Source: Arbacia lixula (lineage: Eukaryota > Echinodermata > Echinoidea > Arbacioida > Arbaciidae). Taken from it: a stretch of 64,000 bases of DNA. The notes beneath the pieces were generated by a model. The model was not told where the DNA came from, ran no database searches, and worked only from the letters and a program-made list of their open reading frames with translations. Each line of letters begins with the position of its first letter. The stretch's first letter is position 1. Where the stretch lies: the NCBI GenBank assembly GCA_963669155.1, contig OZ022579.1, forward strand, positions 15,088,040 through 15,152,039, in the 5' to 3' direction. The translations under genes were made by a program, and so were the position numbers. Positions 1,419 to 64,000 of the stretch are shown here, one piece after another.

Positions 1419-1624
1419 TCAGTGGTCAAACTTGATGTCTAATCCCAGCTGTGCTTCTTTGCTGTTGGTAGGGTGCTTGTAGCTCCAGCACAGCACGCCC
1501 AGGAAGAGGAAGATTAGGAAGACGAGGGTGACGATGACTCCGATCCACCAGGGTTCGATGACCAGGCCCCCTTCAGGCGACTCCTGGTTGCCCTCATCAG
1601 GCAGACCTGGGCTGGACGATGGGG
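1419..1624 (-). CDS. E77: terminal exon, stalk + transmembrane helix + cytoplasmic tail
   Basis: 206 bases including the stop TGA at 1419-1421. It encodes 67 residues after the split codon. First comes a Pro/Ser/acidic stalk of 26 residues ([11 protein letters not shown], then [15 protein letters not shown]). Next is one hydrophobic helix of 20 residues, [20 protein letters not shown]. Last is a 21-residue tail beginning SYKHPTNSK and ending DIKFDH. The acceptor AG lies at plus 1625-1626 after a pyrimidine stretch. This makes the protein a type I, single-pass membrane protein with almost no intracellular part. I see no kinase, PDZ-ligand or ankyrin-type motif that I would trust in the tail. 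The exon closes the phase-1 frame of all upstream exons, which supports the whole gene model. Confidence 0.88.
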
Positions 1625-13600: not shown

Positions 13601-16600
13601 GTCAGTGGCACTAATGGTATACCTATGGAGAAGTCTGGGCCAGTCCAGCAGTCAGGGAAGAGACACCCTTGGGAACCCTTGGGAAGAGGTCGGGCAGCTG
13701 TTCACACAAATACCCCCATTCTGACAGACATCCAGACTTATACAGACAAAAAAAGTTTCTAAATGTGTTTTTAATATGTTTTAATATGTTTAATATTTTT
13801 AATATGTCTCTCTGAGATGGAACGTTTATCATTGCTCAGATTCTAGCTTATATGCGTTTGCACAGAGGCTAATCACAAAACAAAATGCGATATTGTGTAT
13901 CAATTGCCAACATTAGTCTGAATCACGTTTGCAAACGCTGATTATTGGCTAGAAAAAAAGTTGTCAATGGCACTAACCTGTGGAGCAGTCTGGGTCAGTC
14001 CAGCAGTCAGGGCAGAGGCAAGACACTTGGGGAGAAGTGGGGCAGCTATTCACACATGTACCCCCATTCTGACAAGCATTCAGACTCACAGAACAAGTAT
14101 CCAACACTGGATAGTAGATAAAAGCAAGGAATCATGTCTAAACATTTCAAAACTATTCCAACATTATTTTCTACTTACATCCCTCACTACAATGCTATAG
14201 TTTCTGAACTAGATCTGAAAATAATGATTATGCTCAAAACAGTCAAATACATTCCCCTAGTATTGGTGTACCAATGTTTCGTCAAATCAGTGAATTTGGG
14301 GGTATGCCTTTCTGAGACAAGTTTTGATCTACTCAAAATGCCCAAAGATAAGGATAAACCTTCCTTTTGTACATATGCGATTTAACTTGCCTATGTATGA
14401 AAATAATGACAGTGCTTAGAATATATATAGTCAAATCTGATCCGCTATTATTGGTGTACCAATACTTTTCAAATTAGCGATTTTGGGAGTATGCCTTAAT
14501 GAAAAAAGTTTTGATCTCCCAAGATGTCTATAGTTAAGGATAAACCTTTTTTGTTTACTTATACAATTTAATGTGTCTATGTATTATGCTTCTAAGGATC
14601 ATATCAATGGTAATCAAATATATTACACAGAATTATACTTGATTTTATGGTTTGTTTGTTGTATCTGAAAAATACATATCACATGATTAATTTTGTTTCA
14701 CATACTCAATTCACAGTTGTCTCGTGTCCAGCACTCAGGGCAGTCACATGTGTAGCTTGTGCAGTCTGACACTGACTGAACACACGTTCCCCCATTCAGA
14801 CACAATGTGCCGCTGTTGCAAATTGCAGTGTCTGTAAAGGAGAAAAACAAATTAAAAATTCAAACATATGCAGGTTTCCACTGAAAACTGTCAATCAGTA
14901 CAGAATGTGTTGACAATCATTTAATACGGTTTATTTCTTTAAATTGAAGGTGTATATAGAGAGGTATTTTTGACAAGAATGTGGTGATATTTTTCAAATT
15001 GAAAGCAGAGTAAACATTATAACATCATGTATTCATATGAATAATCTCACCAATAATTTCAAACAACTGTTTTGAAGAGGTGAATTGAATTATATGTATA
15101 CGTTTTTGTGACAAGCAATTAAGCAAAAGGTATATATGTTAATGTTGTAAATTTTAAGCAGAATGAACATCATTCCAACATAACATTTTTGTCAGTAACT
15201 CCATGTTATCACTAATAATGCACACAAATCCCATAGAGTAGCATTTAATCTGACACAGGAGGGGTTAAAGGATTATAATCTCACCAGTGTCACAAAGAGC
15301 TCCTGCCCAGCAGCCGTCACATTCACATGTGAAGGCGGTGCAGTCTGTCAGCGACGGAACACAGGTGGCGCCATTTTGACAGGGATCCGTCAGGCACATA
15401 GAATTATCTAGAAAAGAACAATCAGAACAAACTCGAGAAAAATAGGGATTGAATTCTACAAACAATATAAAATGAAGAGATTACCTTTCGTGAAAAAGGC
15501 ACATTGAATTATCAAGAAAAAAACAATCGTAGAACAAACTCAAGAAATATATGAATTGACTTCTACAAATACAGGATGAATAGATTACATTATCTCTTAC
15601 TAGGTGATAAACAATCATGGCAATGACAATCCTTGTTATATTCTCCAACGTCAAGTGTTTCCATCAATCATATCAGGAAGGTGTTAGAACTGGAGTCGGA
15701 ACGAAGAGTAATTTATTCATACACCAGTCGCGATCATTGATACCACAATAGAATATTTTACGCGTTTGGTTCTTTGATCCAGTGATGACCGCCGCCAAAT
15801 ATGCAAGACAAATTTTGGATGCATTTAGAGGAATATACAATCTGCATGCGCAGAAGATTTCAGAACCACTTCATGTACTGAAGTACATGTGCAGTAGTAG
15901 TACATCTTATAATGATACGAATCTGTGAATTTCAGATTATATTGTTGCGTCGTTTTTGTGATAAATCAAGAATACGGTAGAAAACATGTCAGAAAAATGC
16001 CTCAATATCGCACATTGGGCAATCATATTTCCTTACAAATATCTTGTAAATCGTTTATTGAGTGTTTCACCTTCCATGGAAACAACATTGATTTCGTGTC
16101 CGGAGATGTCCGAAAACGTTACGGACCAAATTCTTTCTACAATTTTATCAAAATTTCCCTTCGCTCACCCCCAAACTAATTCCCAGTGTGTGTAATAAGA
16201 TCAGCTATGAACTCCCAGCGAAGGCTGAACGGTTGACATATTTCTCAAAACAGATTTTCTTTTGTTATTCAGAGGAAGGCACTGCCTCATTAGAAATACA
16301 GCGTATTGTTTAAAACACCTGAATGTCTTGAATTTTTATGAGGCGGTGGTCATCATAGATCAAAGGAAGTCTATCCGAGCGCAGTCCATCCATGATAGGT
16401 CCATGATCATATTCAGACAAGTAATATTCATTTATATTTTCAATATATCACAGAATAGTGTCATTGCAGAAGGTGCTCCATGCCTACATACAAGAATATT
16501 TGAGAGAGTGTTATGATCTTAACTGCTCTTTAAATCTTAGTGTGCTATCATTCATTTGTATGTTGTTCTGTTGATAGGATCATGTGAATTGTAGACTTTC

Positions 16601-19600
16601 ACAATAAAGGTGTAAAAGCACAGACTAGCATCCACAACTATGTCCATATGTATTGTAAAATATTAGTGGACTGAAACTTAACTAATAAGGAGTAAACTTA
16701 TACTCTTGCAATTGGCTAAATTGGCTTACTTTGTCATCATTCGACTGAAGTGAACCCACAAACATAACAAACATCAGAGTTTAAAGTACATACATGTCTG
16801 GCAGAAGTCCCCTGTGTAACAGGCAGGGCAGAGGCAGAGGGTCTGGGAGCAATCGTCAAGGACTGTGGTGCAGGAACCCCCATTCTCACAGGGGCTGGAT
16901 GTACACGCACTGGTGGCTGGCAAACATGGAAGGAACAGCAGGGAGCAAAGTCAACAGCCATTCTTAACACTCTCAGTATCACATGTGCATGAAATGTGTA
17001 CTGAATCAATAGAGCTTTCTTGGCTTGGCTTAGATTTCAGTGTACAGGGTAGAAATGCTAATGATTACAGACCATACTCATGGCAGAATGGCAAATATAT
17101 TAGGGAGCTTTAGATTTCTCATCCATAACATAGAGTTGGGAAAAAATCAGCTTGACTGCGCATGCATGAGGTAGGCAATTTTATGTCTTCACGAAATTAG
17201 CAGCGCGGCAAGTTTGACTGGGTAAAATTCTGACATCACATACGATTGCTCTGTCGAGTTGTGTCACAACATAAGAAAAATCTAAAGCAAGATTATTCAT
17301 GATGGGGAATAAGGAGAAAAATGCAGCATGAGGGGAGAAAAGATTCCGTGCCATGGGCTGTGAAATCTACAGTTCCCTATTTTTAAGAAAATAATTCCAA
17401 AATAAAATACACTTAAGCCCCATAGAGTCCCAAAGTGTGACATCATTTGAGCATTATTGTCAAGACAACTGGTTCTAAACAATGCGGGTAGAGCAAGCAG
17501 GGGTGAGCACAACAGGGACTCTAATTCTCCCTATCGCATATAGCTCTCCGAATCTGAACGTGTGTGGCGCTCTAATTTTTTTCCCTTTAATTCTTGGGAT
17601 ATGAACTTCCGGTCCACGAACATTCGGCAATCCCGTACAATATAAGGGACCACGGTATCCAACTAATTTTATGAATATTAACCCTAAACCTAACCCTGAC
17701 CTTAACACTAACCCTAAACCTTATTCTAAACCTAACCCTGACCCTAACCACAACCCTACACAAAATTTTCACTGCTTAATTCATAAAAAAAGTGATTTCT
17801 TGGTCACTTTCTGCCGACAACCAGCTCTTACCGGAAGTATACGTCCCAAGAGCAATCGATCAGATATCGGTATCGTGAGGTGATATCGCTTGATATCGGC
17901 TATATGCGATAGGGAGAATTGGGAATGTCTGACACCAGCCCAATAGACAATATTGGACTGCTAAACCTCTCACTGGAGCGAGTTTGTTTAGAGCCAATTG
18001 TCTTGACAATATGCTCATATGACGACACCACTTCGGAACTCTATAGAGCACCGTATAGTCCGGTAATGAACGAGTTGAAGGCCTCAACCCTGATACTGAC
18101 CTATGTCACAGTTGAAGCCGGCCCAGCAGCCCAGGCAGGTACAGGAGAAAGATTGGCAGTCTGTGAGAGAGGTGGAGCACACACCTCCATTCAGGCAGGG
18201 GTTGCCAGAGCATGCATCCACAGCTGTAGGAAGAGAAGGGAATCAACATACAGATATCAACATATTCAAGGGAATTGATGGGAATTACATTTTCAAGAGT
18301 TCAAAATTTCCAAGAATGGTGCACCGCTTACCATAAAGGGAAAATCTGAGCACATCAGAAGAAAAACATCCAAAGAATGTGATCTTACATCCCCTATCAG
18401 TTAATATCTGATTTTAGATATCAGATGACCTTGATTAAGCTTACTTCCATGTAGACTTAAATTCAACATTAACTGACAAAAAAAAAATCAGATAGACAAA
18501 CAATTCTCAGTTGTATTTTTTTGAGGTTTTGCTTCTACTTGTGTGGGAATAAGACATCATTCTAATAATCTTTATCATCACATCACTGCATTGAAATCAT
18601 TTGAAATTCTTAAGCATATGTTTAACTTAAGCAGTGAAGAGGAAAAAGTACATGAATTAATTCTGACTGGTTGTTTAGATATATTTCTGAAAGTGACTAG
18701 CAGGGGAAATATGCTTATTATGCAACCACTATGCATGACAAGCTGTGGACAAATCATGACCTGTATCTGCAAAGGACCTATGTCATGAGATATTCCACTT
18801 GTCAATTCAATAAAGCTTCTTTAAACCTGAGTTAATAGTGGCAGTCAAGGATGACCTGCATAATCATTCACCCTTTTACTCATTACACACAATTATAATG
18901 TTGGGCTTTGTGAATTCCGGGCTGATTAGGATGTTGAAATTTGCTATAGATCTGCAGTAACCAAAGAGGTTTGGAGGTGTCATGGTGTAGTGGTTGTGAT
19001 CTGTGACTGAAGATCTGAAGGTCCCAGGTTCAATCCCACCCATGGCATTCATGTTCTTCAGTAAGATACTTTATCCATATTGCTGCTCTTCACCCAGGAG
19101 TATACATGGGTACCGGGTAGAAGGTGGACAATTGTGTGAATTATCTTGACCCAGCACCAATATCGTCAGCGGGCAAAAATACTCCCCCGGGAAGTGGAGA
19201 TGGTGCACACATGTGTGTGTGCATGATATGGTCTTTTATCCAGCGACCAGGGCTCCAATTGTAACATTCCACTCAATTTAGTCTCTGGACTGGGATGAGA
19301 AAGATCCTCTACACCACTACACAAAATATCATTAAAAAGATACAGGCCTAGGAGATTGGGTACATACGGGTGGAGCAGGTGTCACCGGTCCAGCAGTCTG
19401 GGCAGGCACAGGTCCAGTTACTACAGGAGGTACCCTGTAGGTTACACACACCTCCATTCAGGCAGGGATTACTGTTGCAGGCACTGGTATCTGAATGGCC
19501 AGATAGAAGTTAAAATAATGTCATGTGATTTAGCACTCCCCTGGCCCTGAATCTCATCATCCACTTGAATAGGTAGTGTCCACAAGGAAGACCCAAAAGT

Positions 19601-22600
19601 GATATGACTTTTAGATCACCCTTACAATCTTATAAATATATACAATTCAAACTTTCATTTAAAAACACAACTCTTTGTTTACTAATATCAAAATCCTATC
19701 ACATACTTTCTTGATCCGCCTGTCTAAACAACGGTGAATAATTATAATTGATATATTCTGCATCTTCCATTTCTTTACATCAATTTGGTATTTCCATCCA
19801 AGTAATACTATTCCACATTTGACAAAATTATGACTATAAAATCAACATATTTAAATGTAAAGGGATGGATAAATGTAAATAAACAGATATATAAGAAAGG
19901 CCATTGAACATCCTACCTATTTGACAGACATCCCCTGAGGTGCACTGTGGACACACGCATGAGGCATCTGAACAGGAGTTGGGATCCTCAACACAGGTGC
20001 CTCCATTCAGACATGGGTTTGCTATGGCACAGGAACCAAGATCTAGAGGGGACAGAGAAGAATGATTAGAGGTAAGAGATAGCAGTCAAAAAAAAAATAT
20101 GAGGCAGGTATTCAATGGGGCGATGTTTTTTCTTGTGAAGGTTCCTATTAGTGGTGATGTCAAAATACAAGGAAGAAATTATCTCAAAATGACAAAATTA
20201 ATAAAGTTATCTACAGCCTATTAACAATCATTGCAACTTCCAATGAACTGCAATATGATTGAAAAAGGGAATGAGCTCTGAGCTTTGATTTGTCATTGCA
20301 TATCAACCAATTTTGTGCTATGCAAAATGTTAAAATGTTGATATTTCATGTTTTGATTGCATGATGTACATACCAGTCAGAAACAATGGTACCATACCAA
20401 ATCAATTCTAAAGGAAAATTCCAATGTACATTGGACTGAACCTTACCAATCTGACACTGATTGCCTTCCCAGCAGCCTGCACACAGACAGACATAGAGGG
20501 CGCAATTGTCCGTTGTCTGGCACACACCACCATTGATGCAGGGGCTGCTGGCACAGGCATCCATTCCTGCATGGTCGGAAAGTGCATCAAATTTAGTTTT
20601 AAAAAGAGTTAAAATGATAGATACAGTGCTTGTGTTTTTGATTCATTTATCACTGAACTATGTCACCAAATATGATCTTCAAATAATTTATTACTATCAA
20701 TATACTTGTATGCTTTTTGAAACCGCAAAAGCAAGAGTGAGGCTACTAATACTCATAATGAATAAAATGAACAACTAGGTTGCATGCGTTTTGCTTATTG
20801 TCCTAAATATTTGAATTGTATTCATGAGCAAGGTTGAATTAGTCTAGGAACAGATATTGTCAAACAACCAAGTCTTTCTGTATTCCAAAGAATTATGAGT
20901 AATGTTGGAGAGTTGGAGATTGAGTTTCACCTGAAGCACAATTAGGTCCACTCCAGCAGCCTGTGCACTGGCAGGTGAAGCCTACACAGTCCCCTACAGA
21001 TGGCTGACACACACCTCCATTCAGGCAGGGGTCAGTGTTGCAGGGGTTCACAGCTAGGTGAGTCAAAAATAGAAAATTGACTATTATCATGTTGCTTAAA
21101 TCAGTGTTTCGGACCAATGTGAAGTACAGTGCTTAGGCTGAGAAGGAACCTTATCCCATCAGTCAAACTCAATAGATGGAATGAATATTACCTATTAGTG
21201 GCTGAATTTGGGTAAGAATTCCACAAACCTAATCTTGTAATGTTTTCTAGTAGTTGCATGAGATAAAGCACATAGTGACGCAAAGTAGCCCTTCTCCTCT
21301 CATTAAGAAGCTGTAAACTACATTTAAATCTGAACACTTGTCAAAGTAAGATTTAGCACATAAACACCGAAAATGAAAGTTAATGACCAATGTTAATCTC
21401 TTCTTTAAGATGTGATTTTACCTAGAAATTTCTATTAATAGTTGTAACTCATCCAAAATATCAATGAATGCTGGAGGATAGCAAGGGATAAGGTCAGTCC
21501 CACAGGTTAAACATGACAGCTCTTTAAGATGTGAAAGTCACTCATCATTATTTTCCTTCTTCTGTAAGATGTATTTTTATCTTAAAATCAAAGCATCACA
21601 GTACAGTGGAGCCTGAGATGAAATGCACAGTGATTGCAATCAAATGCAACAAGCTGCATGCATAAATTGACTGCAGTCTGACTGCAATATATTGCCATCA
21701 GCTGTGACGTTGATCTCAGGCCCAACTGTAAATGTTTGATGAAAGACTGCAAGGCATACTCACGTGTTTCACATGACGGCCCTTCAAAGCATGCGGGACA
21801 GAAACATAAGTGGTCGGTGCAGGAGTTTGCCTGGGCAAAACACGTCGCTCCATTCAGGCAGGGATCTGGACTACACGGACTGACATCTGAAATCAAATAC
21901 GTTCACATGAGTTCCCTCGCACAATACAAAATTTACACAAAAAGTCAAAATGAACCTTTCCCTCCTCCTCATCATCCTCTGTTGTTGTAGCTGGTTGATT
22001 TTAGGCCTGTGCTTAATCACACCTGATTATGGACATGCTGCTTGGATCTATTGCTTCTATGATGCAATGAAAGAAACAGAGATGGTTTATGACCTCCCCC
22101 TCTTTCTCTTATTCGAGGAATAACTTCTGCCATGGTAATCATTCCTCACAATGCTGTTAAAATATGTATAAGTGAAAATTATTTTTTCAAGGGCATAAGC
22201 GCAGTATGAGGTTTGAAGCTATGATCTCCTGTATGCAATTAGAAGGGCCTAGCCACTACACCACACTGCTCCCATATTGTGTGCATTTCTCTCATGCTTA
22301 CTCTCTTAACACTGATTGCGAAAACTACACTACTACACCTTACCGACCCCCAAAATATCTACAACTACCCTGGTGTCAACATCCCCTAACACTGGTTACA
22401 ACTGCTACACCACTTCACACTACTGATCAAATAGTATCCAGATTACCCTGGTGGTTATCCCTTGACACTGGTTGCAAAAGCTACAACACTACACCTTACT
22501 TATCCAGCAATATCCACATTACTCTGGTGTTAAAGTTGCCGACATTGTTTACAAGGGCTATTCTACAACACTTATAAGTGCTTCAAAATGATTTATATTA

Positions 22601-25600
22601 CCGTAACGCTTACCTTCCTGACACTGGCTGCCGGTGAAGCACTCTGGACACTGGCAGAAGAAAGAATCACATGACTGGCCGCTCTGGAAGCAGCTGCCTC
22701 CGTTCTGACAGGGGTCCGAGTCGCACACGTTAATGGCTAGTCAGGAGAACCAAAATAAAAGAGGTGCATATGAATTATAATTTCATCAACTCATGATTCA
22801 TAATATCTATTAAATAATGTATTTCTGTTTTTAGACTGATAAACCACTTTATGTTCAGGATGTCCTTGATAGAACCTTGTATACACATGGCAGCAAACAA
22901 AATCATGTGTCTGGAATCTTTTGATTTTAGGAAAAATCTTCAACTAGGTTTGTAACAGAAATTTATATTAATTTGATTTCACTGGTAAATCTTGATTCAA
23001 ATTAACATATTTGCTTATCACACTTTCAAAGAAGCAAGTTAGTGGAAGTTTTGATAACCTGTACACACAATCAAGGATTGTAAACATATGTATTACACAG
23101 TGAGCAAAATGTACACCGATTCTATCATGTAACAAAAAAGGAAGTTAACATATGACATATGAATACAATGTATCCCCACCCCTATACAAAACTGCTCAAA
23201 AATCTTTCCTCAAACGGTGACAAGAGCACTGATGTAATCCATTTGACCAACTATACATTAAATAGTGTCCACTGATTTATTGCATATCAGCAGTATCATA
23301 AAGCCAATGCTTACAAGTCGCACATGTAGGCCCAGTATAACATGCTGGACAGAGGCAAACATACAGGTTACAGTCATCACTACTCCTGGCACACGTCCCT
23401 CCATTGAAGCAGGGGTCTGAGGTGCATGGATTCACAACTACGGAGAGAAAACAGAAGATGTCAATATGCTGTATTATGGCTGCTACAAAAATTGTGAGAA
23501 AAATTACTGCTTCTTCCAATGCCACCTGATTTCACTTTGACTTCAGATATAATGAATTATTTCCACTTTCAACTGAACTACTACTAGAAGTAATACTACT
23601 GCTACTACTTCTATTACTACTACTTCTAGTACTTTTACTATTACTACTACTCCTATGTCTACTACTGTGACATTATTAGTATTATCAATGCACTTTTACT
23701 CACATACATGCAATCATAACACGAAAAGTGCAATAATATCATACAGTTAAATTATAAATCTTAGAATGAAGTTCCCATGATTTAATGGAAGTAAAGTGAA
23801 ATCAAAGTGAAGTGAAAGTTGGACTGAGACAACTTACCAGTTAGGCAGCGAAGGCCAGTCAGACATAAGTCTGATGGACAGTCACAGAAATAGTATGGGC
23901 ACTGAGACGCCCCCTGGCTGGTGACCGTCCGGCAGGAACCACTGTTGAAGCAGGGGTTGCTCAGGCATGGGTCTGCCGCTGAGAGGGGGATGGGGGAGGA
24001 AAGAATATCCAATATATATGTGTGTCCAGATACGTATGGAGATGATAGTATCACAGAATTTTTTGTGAGATGTTCTTTTTCATGAATGATACCCTGACTA
24101 CTGCAATGCATATTGCCCAATCTAGTGCATGCCTTAGGCCATATTCCATTAACATATAAGAATTTTGTGTTAGACAGAAAATAAGACAATTTGCTTGACT
24201 TAAGCATGCTTATCTTGTTCATGGAATATGGGCCCTGCTGCTAAGTGCAGTAGTAAATGCATGTGATTAGACCTACATCCATTGATGTGTGTTTTTAAGC
24301 TATCTGGATTTACAGGTGAGCACAGCGAACACAATGTGAATATTTTTGCACCACAAATGCATTTGATATCATGTCACAATATTTTTATGTGTTGTTAAAT
24401 TCGCAACCCCATAGTGATTTGTGAAAGTCATAAAAAAAAACTTGCAAAAAATTACATCTCAGATAGCAGGCAAGAATCTCAACCCACTGACTTTTATAAC
24501 TATTTATTGTTGATATGAGCTTACCAGAGATTAGCTTGCCATAGGAGCCACAAAGCTGCTGAAGTGCTGGCATTAGGAGCATATGTTCAGATATCATCGT
24601 ATTACCAAAGTACTAGTGAATTAATTGGAGATTTCTATGTCTTAAAGCATTTTATTTCAAATAAAGTGTTGAAATGTTATGCAGATGTATTTGAATTTTG
24701 TTTGTGCACATCCAGATAAAGAATAAGACTTATTTCAATTTTGAGAATTATAAATATTCTGGGTCCTGCATACACCATTTTTAGCAAACAACGTTTACAC
24801 CTGATGATGATATTCAATGAACAGGGCATTGCATTTTGGAGTGACTTATCATAAGTATTGTAATAATTTTCAAATAAAGATCTCTTATTGAAGGATTACT
24901 TCTATGTCTAGTCATTGTTTACCTTCTGTACAGTCGGGTCCCATCCAGCAGTCCACACACCTGCATTCAGCGACGGGACAAACCTGGTTGGCCATGAAGA
25001 CTGGCTCACAGGCTGCGTTGGATGGACACTGGGTTGTCTCACAAATATCTTGGACTGAGATTTAAAAAAAAAAAAAGATATATTGAACTCATCATACTTA
25101 TATGATGTATCATATAAATATGTACAAATCAATGCCTGCCCATTGTTCTGGATTCACAACAGATTTGATTAACGTAACTAAAATCAAAAAGGGATGAAAT
25201 ACCACAAATCAAGACCTTATGATATACATTATGCTATTGCTATTTTCACGAGAAGAAAGTAATTGAAATAGTGCATTTAAGACACTAAGCCGTTCTTCAA
25301 TACCATTCACAAAATATTTTATTATCTATAGTTGTTTTTTATTTGCAATGTTTGGATTGTTCACGAATGCAATAGATGGGTATTTGCCTGGCACAGTAAG
25401 GGCTGAAGTATAATCTCATGATTCAAATCTTAAACCATGATTGAAATTGAAATGGCTTTTAGACAATACAATCATGATGGCATAAAAAAGAGGGCTAAAG
25501 AAATTTTTCTGAGAATACACATGTGTTGATGATCCATTTTCCCTCACATGTTTGGCAGTTTTGTCCTGAGAAGCAGCTGATGCACTGGCAGGTGTAGGTA

Positions 25601-49600: not shown

Positions 49601-52600
49601 AATCATAAATTCCTGTAGAATTGAGACGAGTTATCAACTCTCATTTATCACTTTAAAAAATTACAAGAATTTATTTTAAAAAAATATGTAATTCAATAGC
49701 ATTGTTTGACAAGCATTTGGACTGAACATTGACCTGATATGAAACTTACAAATGTCACAGTTGGTGCCTGTGTAACAGGATGGACAGGAACAGGAGTAGC
49801 TGCTGCAGAAGTTGTTGCACGTCCCTCCATTCTGGCAGGGACTGCTGCTACATTGATCAACGACTGGATAACAAGAATTGACCAATGAAAGGAATATGTC
49901 AATATCACAATGGAAATATTAATCATATGAGAGTACACCTAGCTGATGAAAGGTTCTACAGATCATTTTTTGCCCATTTCCTTTTGAAGTGTGTCCTTAG
50001 AGAGACAAAATTCTTGAGATGAACACTTCAGAAGCATGTTAGAAACAATGCTCTATCTCTTTATAGCGACTACCCAGAATGTTTAAAGACAAATGTGCTG
50101 CAATATGTTCTATAAATTATAAACACGATAGCATGTGTCCAAAATGTTCATAATTTCTATCCAGTGTAGTAAAAAAATGTTGAAATGCATGACTACGTAC
50201 AAGCTCCAACTCCTTTCCCCCCTTTCATGTCATTGAATTATAACACACTACCATGCCTTAAAAATCCCATTGACTCACTCCACACCTCAATGTCAATGGT
50301 ACTGAGAGGGTCAAACGATGTCCAATATAAGGAAAGAGAGCTGTATTCACCTATCTCACACCTGTCCCCTGTCCAGCAGTTTGAGCACACACAGCTGTAT
50401 GACGGGCAGCCATTGAGGCAAAAGCCACCATTCTCACAAGGGCTGGATGCACAGAAGTCAATCCCTGTGAAAAAAAAAAAGAAGAAGCATGATACACAAC
50501 ATATAACAGTTTACATATTTGAGCTGTGCTGTAGTGCTAATGTACATTATAGGTTCATGTCCAATGATACCATATTGAAGTATTGATTACAGTAAAATAT
50601 GTTTTAATGTGCCAAGATGCATCAATGCACAGTTAATACGCATAAATCCCCAAAAGAAGCGTGTGGTCTGTCACACAAATGTTTAATCTACATTGATTGA
50701 GTGAAAGATAGAGATAGTGCTAGATTTACTGTTAAAAGTGCTTATATAGAAAAGCACTTCATATGAAGATTGAATCATTTCTTCTTGTGCATAATACGAT
50801 GACTAACAATACATCTAATTGAACATTATAGTAAAGTATTGTAAGTACAAATATAATTAAAGGTACAACCCACTGCAACAAGTTGTAGGTATATATCACA
50901 CTCTTTCCACAAATTATAAGAAGTTCCTCACCTTCTTTCTCTGTATCCTCCACCATCATTACCTCTTTTGTTTTCTTTCCTTCCTCTTCTGCTACATTCA
51001 TCTCTCTCATTCTCTCTCTCTTTCTTTCACTTGTCTCCTCCACTATTGTCATCTCTTGCTGTCTTGTTCTCTTTTATTGGATCAGCTTACCTGTTTCACA
51101 TAGCGGGCCAGTGTGACAGGGCCCACAGGCGCATTGTATTCCCCCACAGTCGGCATTTTGAACACAGGTAGCTCCATTTTGACAGGTGTTGGCAGTAGAA
51201 CACAGGTCCACGGCTGAAAAAAAGACATAAGGTCATACTTCAGATGTGTGTGGATACATGTTTGTTCTTATTCATAGCTCATATTCCATGGTATCTATTA
51301 TTATCGTATATTATATGGTATCCATTCTTAATTCATATGTATGATATCCATTCTAATTTCACATTATATGGTATATATTTTAAATTGATATTATACAGTA
51401 TTTATTCTAATCTTACATTATATGGTATTCATTTTAACCCATATTATTCTTTTGAAATTCTTACTTCAAACTAATCTTAACATGAACTTGACTATTTCCC
51501 TCTTTCAATCTTTCTCTCTTACGTGTCTGGCAGTCCTGGCCAATCCAGCAGCTGGGGCAGTCACAGGTGTAGAGGTTGCAGTTCCCTGGTACCGGCTGGC
51601 ACAAGCCCCCAGACTCACACGGGTTAGGGGAGCATGGGTCCAGCTCTGTAGGGGTAGATAGAAAGAATTACAGACCTGTCATGGCATGCATGTTTGTGAC
51701 AATGCTGTTTGTCATCATGACAATTTTCTTGCCTTACTGACATCACAGTGAGCATAATGGGCATATAGTTTTAATTTCACGATAGGCTTACATGAGTTAA
51801 TGGTCAGAAAGAAGGCATCTGATATCACAGTAATGAAAATTTTTAGTTTCAATATGTAATGGCTACAAAACACAAAACATCTGATCTGGGCCCCATTGCA
51901 TAAAACTTAAATTAATGGTAATTCTGATATCAATGGTAACTACTACTTGAAAGCCAATGAAATTCATGGTTTCCATGGAAATTGCCATTGATAGCAATGT
52001 TAAACCACCAATGGTAAGTTTTATGCAATGGGGCCCCATATATCATGACATGGGAAGAGATATAATCCTTTGCTAGAGTTACTGACCAACATCACAGATG
52101 TCTCCTGTGAAGCAGCTAGTGCACTGACAGAAGAAGTCCAGACAGTTAGAGGCAGATTGTAGACACACACCACCATTTAGACACGGTTGGGTGCTGCAGG
52201 CGCTCACCACTGAAATCAAACACAGAAAATTAACCTCACTAAATGACATTATAAACCATGCAGCTGTATCTTACATGAAAAGAATTTTCACTGAATACAC
52301 AAGTCATACCTAAACAGTATCAACGCAAAATAGGGAAAAGCAGTATTATTCACATATGGTTCCAGAGCTATCCACTCTAGGCATCACAATCTTATCAAGA
52401 TTAACCTGGATTTTAATTCCATTTATTTATGCTAGCATTGTTATGCATACATATTTGTATATTCATGAAATACTCTACCCTATACAAACAATGGATGCTA
52501 GGGATAGTACTCTGAATAATATTCAACTTAAATTTCCAATTAGGTCACCCTTTTGGTGATAATACATTTTCCTGAAAAATGCTCTACCATATACAAACAA

Positions 52601-55600
52601 TGCTAACATAGGCAATTCTTCTTTACCTGGGCTCCACCCACTTTTCAAATATTGTAGCAATTCAATTTTCTGTTTAATAGGTTAATGCTGTAGTTATCAT
52701 TACACATCTGCAAACACTATCCAGTTCAAATCTATCCATTTTGCAGCTGAGCAGGTTAGTTTTTTATTTTTCTTTCTGGGTAACCATAGCGACATTCAAC
52801 ATCAGCTGTGTTAATTTCCCATTTAGGTATAATAACCACATTCCTGTGAGCCAAAAGTAGGTTATGTTGCTGTTCAGAAGTATGTTAAATAGTTATGAGA
52901 ATATCTTAAAGCTCATTGTTATTGAATTGTTTTTATATCTCTTATCATAAAAGCAGTTAAGACTAACATAGAACATAACATTTACATATAAAAACTAGTT
53001 ACATCCAAGTGGTAAACAAAGAAACACTAAATATATTTCATGAAAATGAGGAATCAATGAAGAAGTCTTACTTTGGGTTCGCCCCAAACAGGACAAAAAC
53101 TAGCAGTTCTGTGTCATACGGCTTTGAATGATTTGATTTGGAGTTTAACTATCTCTGTCCCATATGCAATAATAATCCAGTTAATAGTTACATCATGGTC
53201 GGACACTCCACTGAATCAAGAATGACTAGGGATTTGATTGTGAAGCTGTGTAGGTGTGTTATTTTACAGCGTGCCCAAACCAACAACAGAAATAGGGGCA
53301 CATGGTGGAATGTTCTTTCATTACCTTCTCAGAGCTGAATCGCTGTTGTCATATGCATTATAATGGTTACAATGTGGTCCACTATCTATGGAATTTCCAT
53401 TTTACTCTGTGAGTGGTACAATTGGCCCGAGGTCATTCGTTCCAGTAATAGCTTGCTCATGCACACATTGCAACCATGAACTCGCTTATTGTGTTCCAAT
53501 TTGCATGGGATATCAGTGGTTTGTGCTGAGAGGGCTCACACAATTTATTGTATTAGTATGTAGAGACTCACTGGTTCCACAGTTGTCCCCCTCATAACAC
53601 TCAGTGCACTGACACTGCCTGGAGGTGCAGTCCAAGGGGACACAGGTTGCCCCATTCAGACAGGCCATCGTCTGACAGGGGTCCAGTACTATATAAAGAG
53701 GGAGATTGAATATAGGCAGTAAATTAGGCATCTTTTAAATGAGCTGTTTCCATAATACATTCACAACTCTCCCCCTAGTAATGGGTTATCACATTCATCT
53801 GTATTTAGTACTTCAATTTCAGTGGGTGGAACACACTTCAAATGTATTAGTTGTTGCTACTTGGACAAACATCAGACAATCAGATATCAGACATATATAT
53901 CTAAACTTCGCATACATAACAAAAATGGTCTATTCATATTGGGCGACATTATTTTTTCTTTAAATACCTTATAACTTTGCATGTATGATTCATGATATCA
54001 ATAGTACAATGCTCTTAGTAAAATTCAATAATGGAAGAATGACACACATTTAAAAGAAAGTGAAAAAAAGAAAAAACTCAGAATGGCCAAAAAGGAAAAA
54101 CAGTTACCAATACATAATAGATCATTTTAAAAAGTTCTCAATCTGTTGCAGACAGAGAGTAACATCCAGCAAGTTATTTTGATTGAGAGACAAACATGCA
54201 CTTACGTGTCTGACAGAAATCTCCAACATAGCAGCTAGTACACTGGCAGGTATACCTATCACAGAATCCACTGGTGGGTAGGCATGCTGCTCCATTTAAG
54301 CATTCATTGTTCAGGCATGGATCGATCACTGCAAGACAAGCGTTGCAATTTCTCATGATCATTTCCTTGAAACTTCACTCTGTATGTAAGGGAAATATGC
54401 CTCACATCCTACATATCCTATGGACTGGTACTAATCTAATTTAATCTAAAATCAAACTGATGAAATGAGAGAGAAATTTACTCTAATAAAATGGTTTTAG
54501 GATCTACACACTTCAGATAATTTCTCATTAACAGCGTTCGATACAAGAACAAATATACACTTTTCTGATAATTGGGAATGTCCCTCAGACCAGTTCATAT
54601 TTATGTACTAGAGCCCCTCAAAACAGTATATATTTGGTTATTATATCACTCATACCTAGCTCTCACAATGCATTTTGCGATGGCTGGACACAATACTATA
54701 TCACGGCCGAGATATATCCAAACCAGCTAGCTCATGGCTACGCGTGTCACGTGTGCGCTTCTGTCTCAGTGTCGCGTAATTAGCAACTGTTGGTAGGCAA
54801 CCATGTAAATACTGCACTGCCAATACATACCTACAGTACTATGCAAGACAGCTGGCTGCGTGCGCACATGTACGCACATACACTAGTACGTGATATCAAC
54901 AAAATTTGTGCGTTTGTAATATAAGGCCAGAAACATGATGAACATAATGAAACTGCGCTACCTTTTGCTTACCTAATTTTCAATAAAATATTTTTTTATT
55001 TTGTCATTGTTGATGAGTGCTATAAAACAACCAATGTGCTGCTATGAACTGGTCAATCTATTACCTTGATGGGGTCGAAATGACCATTACCCTCGGCTAT
55101 AAACCCTTGGGTAATGGTCATTTCGCCCCACGTCGTTGATAGATTTGCCAGGTCATAGCAGCACATAGGTTAGCTTTATACTATTGCATGATACTTACTC
55201 TGATCACAGAGGAGGCCAGAGAAGCAGCCTTGGCACTGACATGTGTAGTCTACGCACGACCCAGGCACAGCCTCACACACAGCTCCATTCTCACACTGGT
55301 GTGTCTCACAAGCATCAATGACTAAGAAAATAGTTTTTTTAATTATAGAAATTCAATCATTATGAATGTTATACATTAAGCATTTCAATAGAAGACAATC
55401 TAAAGAAAATATCATTCATTCAATACAGTAGTGATATATATAAGGATATCTGGGATGCAACACAAGGGATGACATGGTAGGATGGAGGGCTATAAAGCAG
55501 AAACCATAATACTGATTTGACAAATGGACACATACATGTATTATATGCATCATTGAAAAAGATTTAAGGAAATATATAGTGGATCCAAATAATGAAGGCC

Positions 55601-58600
55601 AGAGACGGTATTGAAATAGTTAACTTGATTCTAATACTATTGACATGCTAACATTGTCAAATATCTTGTACACTTTAGCTTCCAGCTGCAATACACGTTT
55701 TCATTAATAAACCATTAATAGAGAAAAACATGCACAGGGGCTCGGTTGACTTTTTCTCCTGGTAGTTCCCCTTCTTCCTACCTCTGGTAAGAAAGAACTA
55801 TCAGAGCCCTGGAAAATGTTGAAAGAGCCCCCAAAGCTCCCATAGACACAATGTAAAATTGTAGACAAATGGGCCAATGTGCTCAAAAAGTAGCCTTCCC
55901 CCCCCCCTCAATTTTTAATTAATTTTTTCCCTGATGATAAATTACATTATTTACATTAAAATAACGATTTGAATACATACACTGTTCACAGCTGGATCCC
56001 CTGAAGCAGCTGGTACAGGAACATTGGTGTTGGGTGCAGGAGCTGTCCAGAGCTGAGCAGACGCCCCCGTTCACACATGGTCGGCTGCTACACGGATCCA
56101 GCACTGACAACGCAAGTAGGTTATGAATAATGTTGAACACAACTGTGTCTGACTCCTCCACCATACAGCCCTTGAGCACATCATATATATGTGAAGTGTC
56201 ATATGAAAAATTGATAAATTGCATTTTCGATATTGTATCTGTTGAAGGGATAGTTCACCCTGAAATTAAGTTGGTTTCAATAAGGAGATGCATGAAAGAA
56301 ACATATTAGTAATGGTTTGATGAAAATCCTTCAAAGGATAAGAAAATTATGGTCTTTTAAAGTTTTGATTTTGTGATGTTACGTGCAAGGTGCTCTCCCA
56401 TATGCTGTGTACAATCTTTTTCGAAAATGTGCATTTTTTCAAAAGGATAAGCATTCTTTTATCTGCGCATTTGATACTTCAAATTGTGCATTTGATATGT
56501 TTTTTACGCACATATCTGTATGAAAGCAAATCATTCCATAGTAAAAAAACAGAAAAAGAGCAATTTATCAAACATATGGGAAAGCACCTTGCATCACAAA
56601 ATCAACATTTCAAAATATCATGACTTTCTTATCCTTTGACAGAGTTTTGTCAAACCTTCACTAATATGTTTCTTACATGTTTCTGCTTCAATTGAAACCA
56701 ACTCATCTTCAGGGTGAACTACCCTTTTAAAATCAGCCAAAGATGTGATGAGTACTTACATGTCTGACACAGGTTTCCTGTATAGCAGCCTGGGCAGTCA
56801 CAGGTGTAGTCAATGCAGGAGCCACTCGCTGGCTGACACGTCCCTCCATTCTGGCAAGGGTTGCCAGCACACTGGTCAATCCCTGGTGCAAAAATCATAC
56901 AAAGATTCTTGCTCTTTGATGGGTACCACCAGGCATAATAAAACCAATACTTAGCTGTTTTGGAGATATGATTCAACATGAATCATACTTTCATCGAGTC
57001 TGATATGTTTCTGTTATTTGTGAACAATGCAATTAATTACTACATATTATGGATTACAGATATCAATTGGCTCTGAATGCAACTTTTGTTTGCATGGCCA
57101 CTCAGTAATGCTTGTGTCATTTAATTCCTCTAAGCCCAAAGTAACCCAGATGGTGTCCAATGCTTGCAGTTATTATTAAGTCATTTTCAAAAACTCATCA
57201 TACTACACAAACACAGTGGCATGAAAGGATCTAAAGTAAAAATCAAACACTTGACAATTTAATAAGAGCCTGAAAATCAGAAAACAAAATTAAGAACAGT
57301 TTGGGAAAATCAGACATATAATAAGAAAATTGTGAATCTTGGAATATCATGATTGCTAATACTGATTCCTGATCACTAACCTTCATGGGCAACTGTATTG
57401 GTCCAAAATGCTGTATTGCATGGAATTCTCCTTATTGCATATATAGCTCTCCGAATCTGAATGCGTGTGGCGCTCTAATATTTTTACTTTTTATTCTTGG
57501 GATATGAGCTTCAGGTTCACAAACATTCTATAGCTATTGTCTTGCTTGTGTCTTTTCATTCTTTCAGTACTCCATCCCTAATTCATGTTGAGGTAGGCAA
57601 AAACATCACCCTGAGTGATTGGTGGTATTTTTTTCAAGTCTTTCGTCCATGTAACAACCCTTCAATTTTACTATTACGAGGTTTATGAGGGTCAAAATTA
57701 CAGATCCTGTGCATTATTGAATATGATTGAATATGGATTGAATATGTACCAAACTCTTACCGGAAGTATACGTCCCAAGAGCAATCGATCAGATATTGGT
57801 ATCGTGAGGTGATATCGCTTGATATCAGCTACCTCAGATTTAGAGAGGTCACTATTGATAGTTTTCAACACAAACAACTTCCTTATGATATGTCAGATTT
57901 TCCTAGAACCTTTGCAAATGTGTTTCTCTAATCTTTCTGCTTGTATACAAGTCAACTTGTGAGAGGGATTTAATTCCCCTTGAAAGAGGTTATACTTGTC
58001 TGGCAGCGATCTCCGATGAAGCATTGTGGGCAGTGACAGATGACGTCCACACAGCGAGTACCGACCGCCTCACACACCCCTCCATTTTCACAGGGATTAG
58101 GGGAGCACTGGTCAAGTCCTCGATAGCACACACACAAAAAAACAGAATTATGCATAATGAGGAACATGTCAAGATACTGACAGAAGTGAGATCTGCATGA
58201 CTGCATCATTCCTGATCACAGTAACTCTTAACCCGCCGTTGTCACAAATTTGCGACCAACTGTAATAGACAAAACTACAATGGAGAAAACCTCCAGCACA
58301 GAGGGGTTTTACCCCTGGCAAGTTAAGAGTTAGAGTAGTATATCACTGTTCAAATTTACTTCAAAGTTGCAGGTAGAAACTGAAATATCATTTTCCCCCT
58401 CATTTTCCATCTTAGAGAATAATGGATTTTTTTTTAATCAGCAATGTTATATTAATAGTTAATTTATGAACACTACTGAATAACCATTGACCACTGAGCA
58501 AACACCATTCAAACACCATTGAAATACCAATGACCATTGGACATACCATTGGTTACCAATGAAATACCATTGGCGATTTCTGTTAGGGTTTACATATTCA

Positions 58601-61600
58601 CATTGCAATATTATGCATCAGCAGATACATAATGGCAACTTCATATGAATTATGAATTGAACTTAAATGACATATGACAATTAAACTCTTTATGTGCCAT
58701 GAGCATATTTTTTTCCATTAATGCACCCAATTCCTTAGGAGAGCATGTTCTTTGACATAGGAAGAGTTAAACAGAAGATTAACCAATGTGAATGGAGACT
58801 TACTGGTTTGGCACTGGTCACCTGTATAGCACGGCTGGCATTGGCAGGAATAATCAGTGCAGGACCCAGCCAGGGGCCCACAGAAACCACCGTTCTGACA
58901 TGGGTTTGGGTTGCATTGATCCAGGACTAAAACAATGGTTCAAAGCTTACGATTAGTGCTAATTTTAAGACCAGTGTGTTTGATACTAGCTTACTGTAGC
59001 AATTTTGCTTGATATAGCACCTTTCTGCATTCCAATTATCACCAAGCACATATTGTGTTAATTCATGATATGGAGGGAGGCTTACACCAGTCTTCTGTAG
59101 AGTGTTTGTATTGACACTAAACTACGTTTTTTGCACACTTTACGATGGCATAACGCTTGGCCGATGTTGCATATTTAGAGCGGCTTAATCACTCTACACT
59201 AGGAGAAACACTGGTTATGAGGCGCTTCTAAAGGAGCTTATTTCCCAGTGTGAAAGGGGTATTAGACAAGGAGCAACCTTCAAGACACATACTGCTTCAT
59301 CCTTGTCATTACCATTAAAGACAGCCCGTCCCTTTTTCAGATCACCACAAAACCATCGAAACATTGGCAAAACAAATAGAGAAGTGTTAGCAAGCTGTAT
59401 ATTCATAATTTAAAACTGATACGTAGTGTACAATTCAAATAATGCACGTAAACAACGTCTGATTAATAGTCTTTACCTCAGGCTCTTAGCAGTTTGTGTT
59501 GAAATATCTGCTTTACTGATTAATCTGTTTATAAAATTATAAAACGCATTATGAAAAAATTGTCCTATAGAAGGAATCATCTCCAAAGTTTGGTAATTAC
59601 TCATAAAATTAGGTTTTCACACATGCATAATAATCACATAGATACTGTAACAAAGACTAATACTTTTTTTGTAGTACAAAAAAAGTCGGTTTGAAATTTA
59701 ACGGCTGAAATTTTTACATATACAGAAAGTTCAACATGCTATATTCTTAGAAATGGTCTTGCATCACACTTTCTTCAATTTACGATCGTGATAGACGATT
59801 TCAAATTTTAGGCTTGCAAAAGGGACGGACAATCTTTAACATGAAGATGCACAGAGAGTCAGTTGAAATTGTCTAATATTGGTACTTCTACGAGTGCCAC
59901 TCACAAGTTTCACAATTCTGTCCCAGATAGCAGTCACTGCAGCCACACTGGTACTGGTCACACTGGCCAGCCATGATGCTGCACGTCCCTCCAAACTGGC
60001 AGGGGAAGCTGCTGCAGGGGTTGAAGACTGAGAAGGCAAATATATATATCAGTTTGTAAAAACTATATTAGCTCTTCACGTATCTTGAATGTAATGTACG
60101 TGTAGACTTTTGGTCCTATTGAAATCTGAAATATGGGATCTATTTAGAATCTTACCCATCCGTTGGTGGTGGTACGTAATGCTCAGTTTCAACAGTATCT
60201 TTGTTATAATCTAAGGCCTATTTAAATTTCACTGGTACAAAAGAGCAAACATGGTTTGTGCCTAATAATAATAATGATAATAATAATAATAATAATAATA
60301 ATAATATTCAATTCTTAGAGACACATAATACTATTCAAATAGTCTCTATGCATGTGAAAGTAAAAATTGATTATGTGAGAATTTGAAAATAACTAATAAT
60401 CATCAAACAGATGTGTCTTTCGTGCTGATTTGAATTGATTAAAGTCTGTCAATGATCTCATGGCTTGGGGGAGGTTATTCCATAATTTGGGTGCTGTATT
60501 TGCAAAAGCTAGATCTATCACCGAATGTCTAAGATTTTACACGAATTTCAGAGAGAAGATTTTTTTGATTGAGAACGAAGATTACGACTAGGCTGGTATT
60601 GTTTGATGAGTTCAGTAAGATGGACCGAAGCATTACCACATAGGCATTTGAATACAAGAGTGAAGATTTTAAACTGAACACGAGCCCTTATTGGAAGCCA
60701 ATGGAGACTATGTAGGATCGGAGTTATGCGTTCAAATTTCCTTTTTCGCGTCACAAGCCTTGCCGCTGAATTCTGTACACGTTGGAGTTTTATTTAGTTG
60801 AGTCTCGGAGATTCATGGTTTGTGCCTATGTCTTCAGCATTAAAAAAATTGTTTATTTAAAACTTTGTGTAAATCAATAAAAAGATAATGTAATCCCTCT
60901 AGACTATACTGTGATTCTACATCCTCACATAGGATAACCAATACGATAACCTTAGTAACCAATACGCATGTGACCTGGGTTTTAGACTCACAGTTTTCAC
61001 AGAAGTTGCCCGAGTAGCACTCTGGGCACTGGCAGGTGTAGGCAACGCAGGAGCTTGAGTCTGGTGTACAGGTGGCTCCATTCTGGCACTGGTTGTTGGC
61101 ACATGCAACTTGCTCTGTTCAAACAGAACAAAAAGATGGAGATTACTACTTACTCTTTCAGGCATTCTTGTACCTGTAATGCGCACCAATCCTGTATGAT
61201 AGTATTGGGTCTGGCAAAGAAGAGTTAATCACTATCGATAAAATGATTACAAATAATGATTTCTACTTAGTAACATCTATAAAATATTATATTTCTGGTG
61301 GATAAGAGTCTATGTGATAGAAGAGATAATGGCCAATAGCACACAATTCATAGAAATGTTTAGCGTTGGTGTATACATCATATTTATCATGATGATATAG
61401 GCGTCTGTTTTCGCATTAATCATGCATGGTGAAACTCCTTGTTTCAACATTACTATCTTGATGGGGATTTGATTTAGAGCAATCAGCAATCAGCAATCTT
61501 TATGATTGAAAACAAAACAAACTCTTTTGAAAAAATCCAACAGCGGGTTTGTAATGACGAAAAGGCTTTCTTGCTAGTTTCCTATAAACATGCATTGCAT

Positions 61601-64000: not shown

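Follow-up and report, generated by a model that had tools for sequence, protein, structure and literature searches.

A giant gene of the sea urchin Arbacia lixula encodes a run of 84 tandem EGF domains, nearly all of which carry two extra cysteines that most likely form a disulfide between each domain and the next. Most of its exons lie in the window, by which we mean the whole 64,000-nucleotide stretch C4:15088040-15152039 (contig OZ022579.1, here called C4) of the 607 Mb genome. Receptors and matrix routinely make use of EGF domains in tandem, which in the textbook view are stiffened by the calcium that they bind. Judged from its sequence, the gene is very likely best explained as encoding a very large protein of probable type I membrane topology, in which interdomain disulfides along an 84-EGF shaft would replace calcium.

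On the minus strand, from position 64000 down to 13978, the window holds 60 phase 1-1 exons (E1-E60), each flanked by AG/GT splice sites and encoding one EGF-like domain; one spurious low-scoring row of the splice-exon list (28733-28644) was left out. If the canonical cysteines are numbered C1 to C6, one extra cysteine (Cx) lies in the C3-C4 loop, usually five residues before C4, and the other (Cy) usually lies three residues after C5, at the glycine of the usual Gly-aromatic packing motif. The first-pass annotation of this DNA had reported the two together throughout, and they do co-occur in all 59 complete domains (E2-E60) as well as in E1, which is cut at the window end but is whole in the flank (C4:15151947-15152075). 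Its literal motif for the second position, C-x-x-C-[FYWH]-x-G, is present in 52 of the 60; the remaining eight (E19, E25, E26, E33, E48, E54, E59 and E60) vary in residue, in C5-Cy spacing or in both. A scan for this motif returned 54 minus-strand matches, two of which (6967 and 12930) fall outside the 60 exons, and no match in the three plus frames of the window.

The array of 60 stands, but it is part of a larger run. Upstream of the window the gene continues with 21 more EGF exons (U1-U21) and the missing part of E1, and just below 13978 there are three seven-cysteine domains (E61-E63; 13421-12250) that were left out of the original finding and that are the most informative domains of all. 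The full run comprises 84 EGF domains (U1-U21 and E1-E63), 80 of which (U2-U21 and E1-E60) carry both Cx and Cy. The other four have a single extra cysteine each: the run opens with a Cy-only domain (U1) and closes with a Cx-only, a Cy-only and a Cx-only domain (E61, E62 and E63), such that both cysteines that would meet at the E61-E62 junction are absent together. Neither cysteine occurs in the EGF domains outside the run, which are one far upstream (‘pre’) and E64-E74, all with six cysteines. When spliced, the 74 EGF exons that lie in the window give 2977 codons and the full set of 96 EGF exons of the gene gives 3885, with no stop in either.

Spacing among the 80 eight-cysteine domains is tightly fixed around the extra cysteines. 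Four residues separate Cx from C4 in 79 domains, two separate C5 from Cy in 78, five separate Cy from C6 in all 80, and five separate C2 from C3 in 79; the C3-Cx spacing is variable (3 to 10). An aromatic residue (F/Y/W) at C5+4, directly beside Cy, is retained in 68.

The pairing of these cysteines was evaluated over register shifts of -4 to +4 domains, with chains broken at CUB domains. The neighbour register, in which Cy of domain N is matched with Cx of domain N+1, yields 82 pairs and no orphans. Matching Cx with Cy of the same domain yields 80 pairs and four orphans (U1, E61, E62 and E63), and all other shifts, including the reverse direction, were rejected with 4 to 10 orphans each. However, a fit with four single-cysteine domains has a chance of about 1/16, and an independent test was therefore sought in other EGF clusters.

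A genome search was conducted with the eight-cysteine domain consensus, and the 150 best candidates were scored. Pieces of eight other EGF clusters were retrieved without knowledge of their cysteine order, the first four on C17 and at three places on C6 (L039-L042), followed by L043-L046. Because these were not taken strictly by rank (matches on C18 and C8 outrank the L042 cluster, and the C8 cluster was read in part) and many lower matches were left unfetched, more arrays with Cx and Cy may exist. The two cysteines are present in four of the eight clusters (L039-L042), whereas L043-L046 hold six-cysteine domains only. Each of the four begins with a Cy-only domain, continues with three or four domains carrying both cysteines (one such domain of L040 holds a ninth), and ends with a Cx-only domain, after which a domain lacking both is found in the three whose stretch reaches that far. 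The first three domains of L039 reside in a single exon, and their order is therefore independent of splice prediction. Neighbour pairing of these paralogues gives 19 pairs and no orphans, compared with eight orphans for pairing within domains and 15 for the reverse register. Over the five genes there are thus 101 neighbour pairs (82 + 19) without an orphan, and cysteine counts balance only between neighbours. A control set of 66 EGF domains from twelve other loci of the genome, read with a parser that passed over domains whose C3-C4 loop held two or more cysteines, includes no domain with Cx and none with Cy; some of these canonical control domains are listed with a seventh cysteine that is the C6 of the preceding domain, which was not used in the counts.

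The locations of Cx and Cy in the domain are consistent with a bond between neighbours. In a profile alignment to Notch1, Cx falls at the Ile of ‘DQIGEF’ in EGF12 and Cy at the Gly of ‘PGY’. Two Notch papers describe how the aromatic residue four positions after C5 packs on Ile, or a similar residue, and on a Gly, both within the hairpin of the following domain (PMC4826273, PMC3415683), and in work on LTBP/fibrillin and Notch the hydrophobic residue that receives the aromatic is the Ile of EGF12 (PMC3906135, PMC4826273, PMC3415683). Together, the alignment and these published contacts assign Cx and Cy to the two sides of the established EGF-EGF packing interface. An AlphaFold2 model of E3 as a single domain adopts an ordinary EGF fold (mean predicted local distance difference test score of 91.4), with Cx located in the loop that connects the strands of the hairpin; it superposes on Notch1 EGF12, the top row of the comparison but tied with other EGFs, with a root-mean-square deviation of 1.0 A over 36 residues. 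Because three Notch EGFs are reported to span about 100 A (PMC3415683), the hairpin turn and the C5-C6 loop of one domain would lie roughly a domain length apart, and by analogy with Notch structures the same should hold for Cx and Cy of one domain.

Two further features distinguish the junctions that would be joined by a Cy-Cx disulfide, or staple. First, the linker from C6 to the next C1 is six residues long in 82 of 82 stapled junctions, versus 6 of the 11 EGF-EGF junctions that lack a staple in the giant gene (Fisher p 9e-6, excluding junctions with a CUB domain between), although this value is only a guide because the domains share ancestry and are not independent. Second, the full calcium-binding consensus, taken as [DNE]-x-[DN]-[DNEQ]-C1 plus D/N/Q at C3+2, is matched by none of the 80 eight-cysteine domains but by 5 of the 11 domains of this gene that have six cysteines. 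The staple therefore appears where the calcium ligands have been lost.

In the mechanism that we propose, Cy of each domain, as the third residue after C5, would bond with Cx of the following domain, which sits five residues ahead of C4, in the region where the main beta-hairpin turns. A staple would be formed at every junction of the run except E61-E62, and the first domain of a stapled stretch would need Cy alone and the last Cx alone. The staple would take over the role of bound calcium in stiffening EGF-EGF junctions, and the expected outcome is a calcium-independent, resistant rod of roughly 280 nm (84 x ~3.3 nm). Such a rod would be carried between N-terminal CUB/EGF modules and a C-terminal membrane anchor, and would hold the N-terminal modules far from the cell. 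It might serve as a cell-surface spacer, a tether or a rod of a surface coat.

The first-pass annotation had instead proposed a fourth disulfide within each domain, joining Cx to Cy and tying the main hairpin to the C-terminal loop. We consider this arrangement unlikely. It draws on the co-occurrence of the two cysteines in 80 of the 84 run domains and on E48, in which the C3-Cx and C5-Cy spacings are both unusual and which on its own would suit pairing within the domain, though long C3-Cx loops are likewise present in the neighbouring E46 and E47. However, it orphans the four single-cysteine domains of the giant gene and eight more in the four paralogues, where Cy(N)-Cx(N+1) pairing orphans none, and an intradomain bond is thus not supported. 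These orphans lie at or next to the ends of runs, each in the order that suits pairing between neighbours. A bond within the domain also leaves the fixed six-residue linker unexplained, and it would have to unite positions that, reasoning from Notch structures, are at opposite ends of a canonical fold that is kept in the E3 model.

E48 is one of several observations that weigh against pairing between neighbours. E36 has a ninth cysteine, at C1+1, that finds no partner in this scheme, and L040 has stray cysteines without partners at C1+2 of its third domain and at C3+2 of its sixth, after the run; the two L040 cysteines could be bonded to each other or to cysteines outside the stretch in view. 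The last stapled junction of L039-L042 has a linker of seven residues rather than six, and the first unstapled junction after the run, seen in three of the four, has a linker of ten. For all four paralogues, no exon preceding the Cy-only domain was found in the 0.9-1.4 kb upstream, and no match just upstream of that domain is present among the best 150 candidates. Lastly, L041 and L042 share 70% identity in their first domains, and the five arrays probably share an ancestor, so their caps do not represent five independent events; the caps are nevertheless kept through the divergence of related arrays.

Less likely still than a bond within the domain is an intermolecular arrangement, in which Cx and Cy would join laterally adjacent molecules and act as dynamic disulfide stickers in a matrix or an adhesive. 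Surface cysteines in the EGF domains of scallop Sbp9 are reported to participate in intermolecular disulfides (PMC13348336), and the equal totals of Cx and Cy in the giant gene (82 each) are compatible with such links. However, the end caps would then call for a stagger of exactly one domain between molecules, this arrangement does not predict fixed linkers along the chain, and the two positions match the packing interface used in cis. It is very improbable that the extra cysteines are unpaired or metal-binding and were conserved merely through the copying of one unit, because although the array grew by duplication, the eight-cysteine copies have long since diverged (mean identity between pairs 0.417, with 1 of 3160 pairs above 0.7) and yet both cysteines persist, and the six domains compared between L041 and L042 show a ratio of nonsynonymous to synonymous substitution rates of 0.18 and retain 46 of 46 cysteine positions.

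Similarity among the domains of the run peaks at a lag of 10-11, where U13-U20 resemble E3-E10 and E15-E20 resemble E26-E31. Duplication of whole blocks of domains therefore seems to account for part of the growth of the array.

The conclusion of the annotation that this is a real and consistent eight-cysteine class holds, and a Pfam profile search with its 60 members returned generic matches only. At E<=1, with HMMER filters dropping most matches above about 0.1, the 60 domains matched 12 families, and 54 of the 60 matched EGF-like (PF00008). All six canonical cysteine positions are present in the 59 complete domains and in E1 when completed from the flank, and the fold predicted for E3 is that of EGF. 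The calcium-binding type (cbEGF) does not accommodate the array, given the absence of the full consensus in all 80 domains, and Laminin_EGF is absent among the 12 families matched. Laminin-type (LE) EGF domains likewise have eight cysteines, but their cysteine spacing differs from that of the array. I-EGF domains of integrins, which also have a fourth disulfide, are defined by the placement of their extra cysteine pair and by pairing in the order 1-5, 2-4, 3-6 and 7-8, whereas the extra cysteines here lie between C3 and C4 and between C5 and C6. No I-EGF model is among the 12 matched families, although the presence of such a model in the library was unchecked. On the strength of cysteine positions and profile matches, we class these domains as an EGF variant that is distinct from the cbEGF, laminin-type and I-EGF forms.

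Several known proteins resemble the giant gene product in part. Fibropellin is likewise an echinoderm (sea urchin) protein with CUB and many EGF domains, but its EGFs are of the canonical six-cysteine type, and its C terminus is avidin-like rather than a hydrophobic last exon. The cbEGF arrays of Notch and fibrillin share the EGF fold, the packing interface between neighbours and the aromatic residue at C5+4, and aligned Notch1 pairs also share the six-residue C6-C1 linker; they differ in that the giant gene places extra cysteines exactly at the packing interface and lacks the calcium consensus in its eight-cysteine domains. Integrin beta3 is described as having one interdomain disulfide, C473-C503 between EGF1 and EGF2 (PMC12383024). 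That bond joins the last cysteine of EGF1 to the first of EGF2 and occurs once, whereas here Cy and Cx would be joined at 82 junctions; according to the same source, the extra bond of the other I-EGF modules lies within the domain, unlike the proposed staple. The nearest mechanical analogue is octovafibrin, a protein that tethers octopus eggs and is presented in PMC10336842 as a load-bearing array of 29 EGFs without calcium sites by PROSITE. It differs in having six cysteines per domain, terminal C-type lectins and a secreted, fibrous form (PMC10336842). No paper on an array-wide Cx/Cy pattern was found in the open-licence PubMed Central literature.

We think it likely that a lineage of echinoderm EGF arrays exchanged calcium for a disulfide at nearly every junction, beginning with a Cy-only and ending with a Cx-only domain, and built rods of up to 84 domains and about 280 nm. 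If this is true, then disulfide-stapled chains represent a second way to stiffen EGF arrays, with shape maintained in the absence of calcium, and they offer a ready-made plan for designing stiff protein rods. In the end-cap rule, evolution would have run a clean experiment that allows disulfide pairing, and the extent of the stapled stretch, to be predicted from sequence. In number, the 96 EGF exons of the gene exceed the 47 EGF repeats given for fibrillin in PMC10336842.

Beyond the run, the gene carries other modules at both ends. Farther upstream, a CUB-like stretch with a weak Pfam match (E=0.018, below the cut-off of Pfam) lies between ‘pre’ and U1; a signal peptide or first exon was not located in the upstream flank examined. 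A further CUB domain (PF00431) lies between E65 and E66, and its second half scores just under the cut-off (20.8 versus 21.4 bits). The last exon encodes a hydrophobic, transmembrane-like segment, a short tail and a stop, and the gene appears to end there. This exon and the AATAAA downstream of it indicate that the protein is probably membrane-anchored, and a type I topology is the probable one. The run is divided between U10 and U11 by a 28 kb intron (C4:15163152-15191148) within which no EGF exon was found; its other introns are shorter than 2 kb. The features within the window are listed in Table 1.

Table 1. Features of the giant gene within the window, listed from its 3ʹ end (window positions).
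Feature	Position	Strand	Remark
Last exon: transmembrane-like segment, short tail, stop	1419..1624	-	AATAAA at 1313-1318
E74, 6-Cys EGF	2395..2508	-	
E73, 6-Cys EGF	3501..3614	-	
E72, 6-Cys EGF	4150..4269	-	
E71, 6-Cys EGF	4755..4865	-	
E70, 6-Cys EGF	6125..6235	-	
E69, 6-Cys EGF	6549..6665	-	
E68, 6-Cys EGF	7131..7250	-	
E67, 6-Cys EGF	7744..7854	-	
E66, 6-Cys EGF	8374..8490	-	
CUB second half (matched stretch)	8952..9050	-	PF00431, E=5.1e-4
CUB first half (matched stretch)	9889..10044	-	PF00431, E=9.7e-10
E65, 6-Cys EGF	10694..10810	-	
E64, 6-Cys EGF	11387..11503	-	First after run without Cx/Cy
E63, 7-Cys EGF	12250..12363	-	Cx only (C-terminal cap)
E62, 7-Cys EGF	12894..13007	-	Cy only
E61, 7-Cys EGF	13308..13421	-	Cx only
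E60, 8-Cys EGF	13978..14106	-	Cx-C4 spacing 7
E59, 8-Cys EGF	14706..14831	-	
E58, 8-Cys EGF	15285..15407	-	
E57, 8-Cys EGF	16794..16916	-	
E56, 8-Cys EGF	18101..18223	-	
E55, 8-Cys EGF	19368..19490	-	
E54, 8-Cys EGF	19917..20042	-	
E53, 8-Cys EGF	20447..20566	-	
E52, 8-Cys EGF	20931..21053	-	
E51, 8-Cys EGF	21764..21886	-	
E50, 8-Cys EGF	22614..22736	-	
E49, 8-Cys EGF	23315..23437	-	
E48, 8-Cys EGF	23838..23978	-	C5-Cy spacing 4
E47, 8-Cys EGF	24923..25054	-	
E46, 8-Cys EGF	25548..25679	-	
E45, 8-Cys EGF	26284..26406	-	
E44, 8-Cys EGF	27067..27189	-	
E43, 8-Cys EGF	27903..28025	-	
E42, 8-Cys EGF	28478..28600	-	
E41, 8-Cys EGF	29336..29458	-	
E40, 8-Cys EGF	30045..30167	-	
E39, 8-Cys EGF	31193..31306	-	Short C3-C4 loop
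E38, 8-Cys EGF	31994..32113	-	
E37, 8-Cys EGF	32670..32792	-	
E36, 9 Cys	33623..33739	-	Extra C at C1+1
E35, 8-Cys EGF	34358..34480	-	
E34, 8-Cys EGF	35075..35197	-	
E33, 8-Cys EGF	35564..35686	-	
E32, 8-Cys EGF	36207..36323	-	
E31, 8-Cys EGF	37159..37284	-	
E30, 8-Cys EGF	38076..38195	-	
E29, 8-Cys EGF	38652..38765	-	
E28, 8-Cys EGF	39666..39785	-	
E27, 8-Cys EGF	40322..40444	-	
E26, 8-Cys EGF	40908..41027	-	C5-Cy spacing 3
E25, 8-Cys EGF	42233..42355	-	
E24, 8-Cys EGF	43108..43230	-	
E23, 8-Cys EGF	44980..45102	-	
E22, 8-Cys EGF	45735..45857	-	
E21, 8-Cys EGF	47352..47474	-	
E20, 8-Cys EGF	48107..48229	-	
E19, 8-Cys EGF	48969..49088	-	
E18, 8-Cys EGF	49750..49863	-	
E17, 8-Cys EGF	50351..50464	-	
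E16, 8-Cys EGF	51091..51213	-	
E15, 8-Cys EGF	51523..51645	-	
E14, 8-Cys EGF	52087..52209	-	
E13, 8-Cys EGF	53572..53688	-	
E12, 8-Cys EGF	54206..54328	-	
E11, 8-Cys EGF	55199..55321	-	
E10, 8-Cys EGF	55981..56103	-	
E9, 8-Cys EGF	56760..56882	-	
E8, 8-Cys EGF	57996..58118	-	
E7, 8-Cys EGF	58804..58926	-	
E6, 8-Cys EGF	59905..60027	-	
E5, 8-Cys EGF	60992..61114	-	
E4, 8-Cys EGF	61684..61806	-	
E3, 8-Cys EGF	62595..62717	-	Folded by AlphaFold2
E2, 8-Cys EGF	63268..63384	-	
E1, 8-Cys EGF	63908..64000	-	Cut by window end; complete in flank, C4:15151947-15152075

Scans of the window for Rfam families and tRNAs gave no matches. Elsewhere in the genome, COX1 on contig C590 has AAA codons where animals have Asn and ATA codons at conserved Ile positions, in keeping with mitochondrial code 9 and thus most likely with an echinoderm source. 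On the plus strand, a 218-codon open frame (1483-2139) overlaps the last exon and has no Pfam match at E<=1; part of it resembles the end of a reverse transcriptase of a long interspersed nuclear element (LINE). An intron of the giant gene contains a short tandem array of TAACCC, a telomere-like repeat, at 17679-17758. The stray C1+2 and C3+2 cysteines of the L040 cluster lie in the domains at L040:2568-2693 and 4529-4657. L043 and L046 are other repeated EGF loci, on contig C8, made of very similar six-cysteine units that are spaced about 0.4-0.7 kb apart in L043, whereas in L046 two units together make up a repeat of about 1.5 kb.

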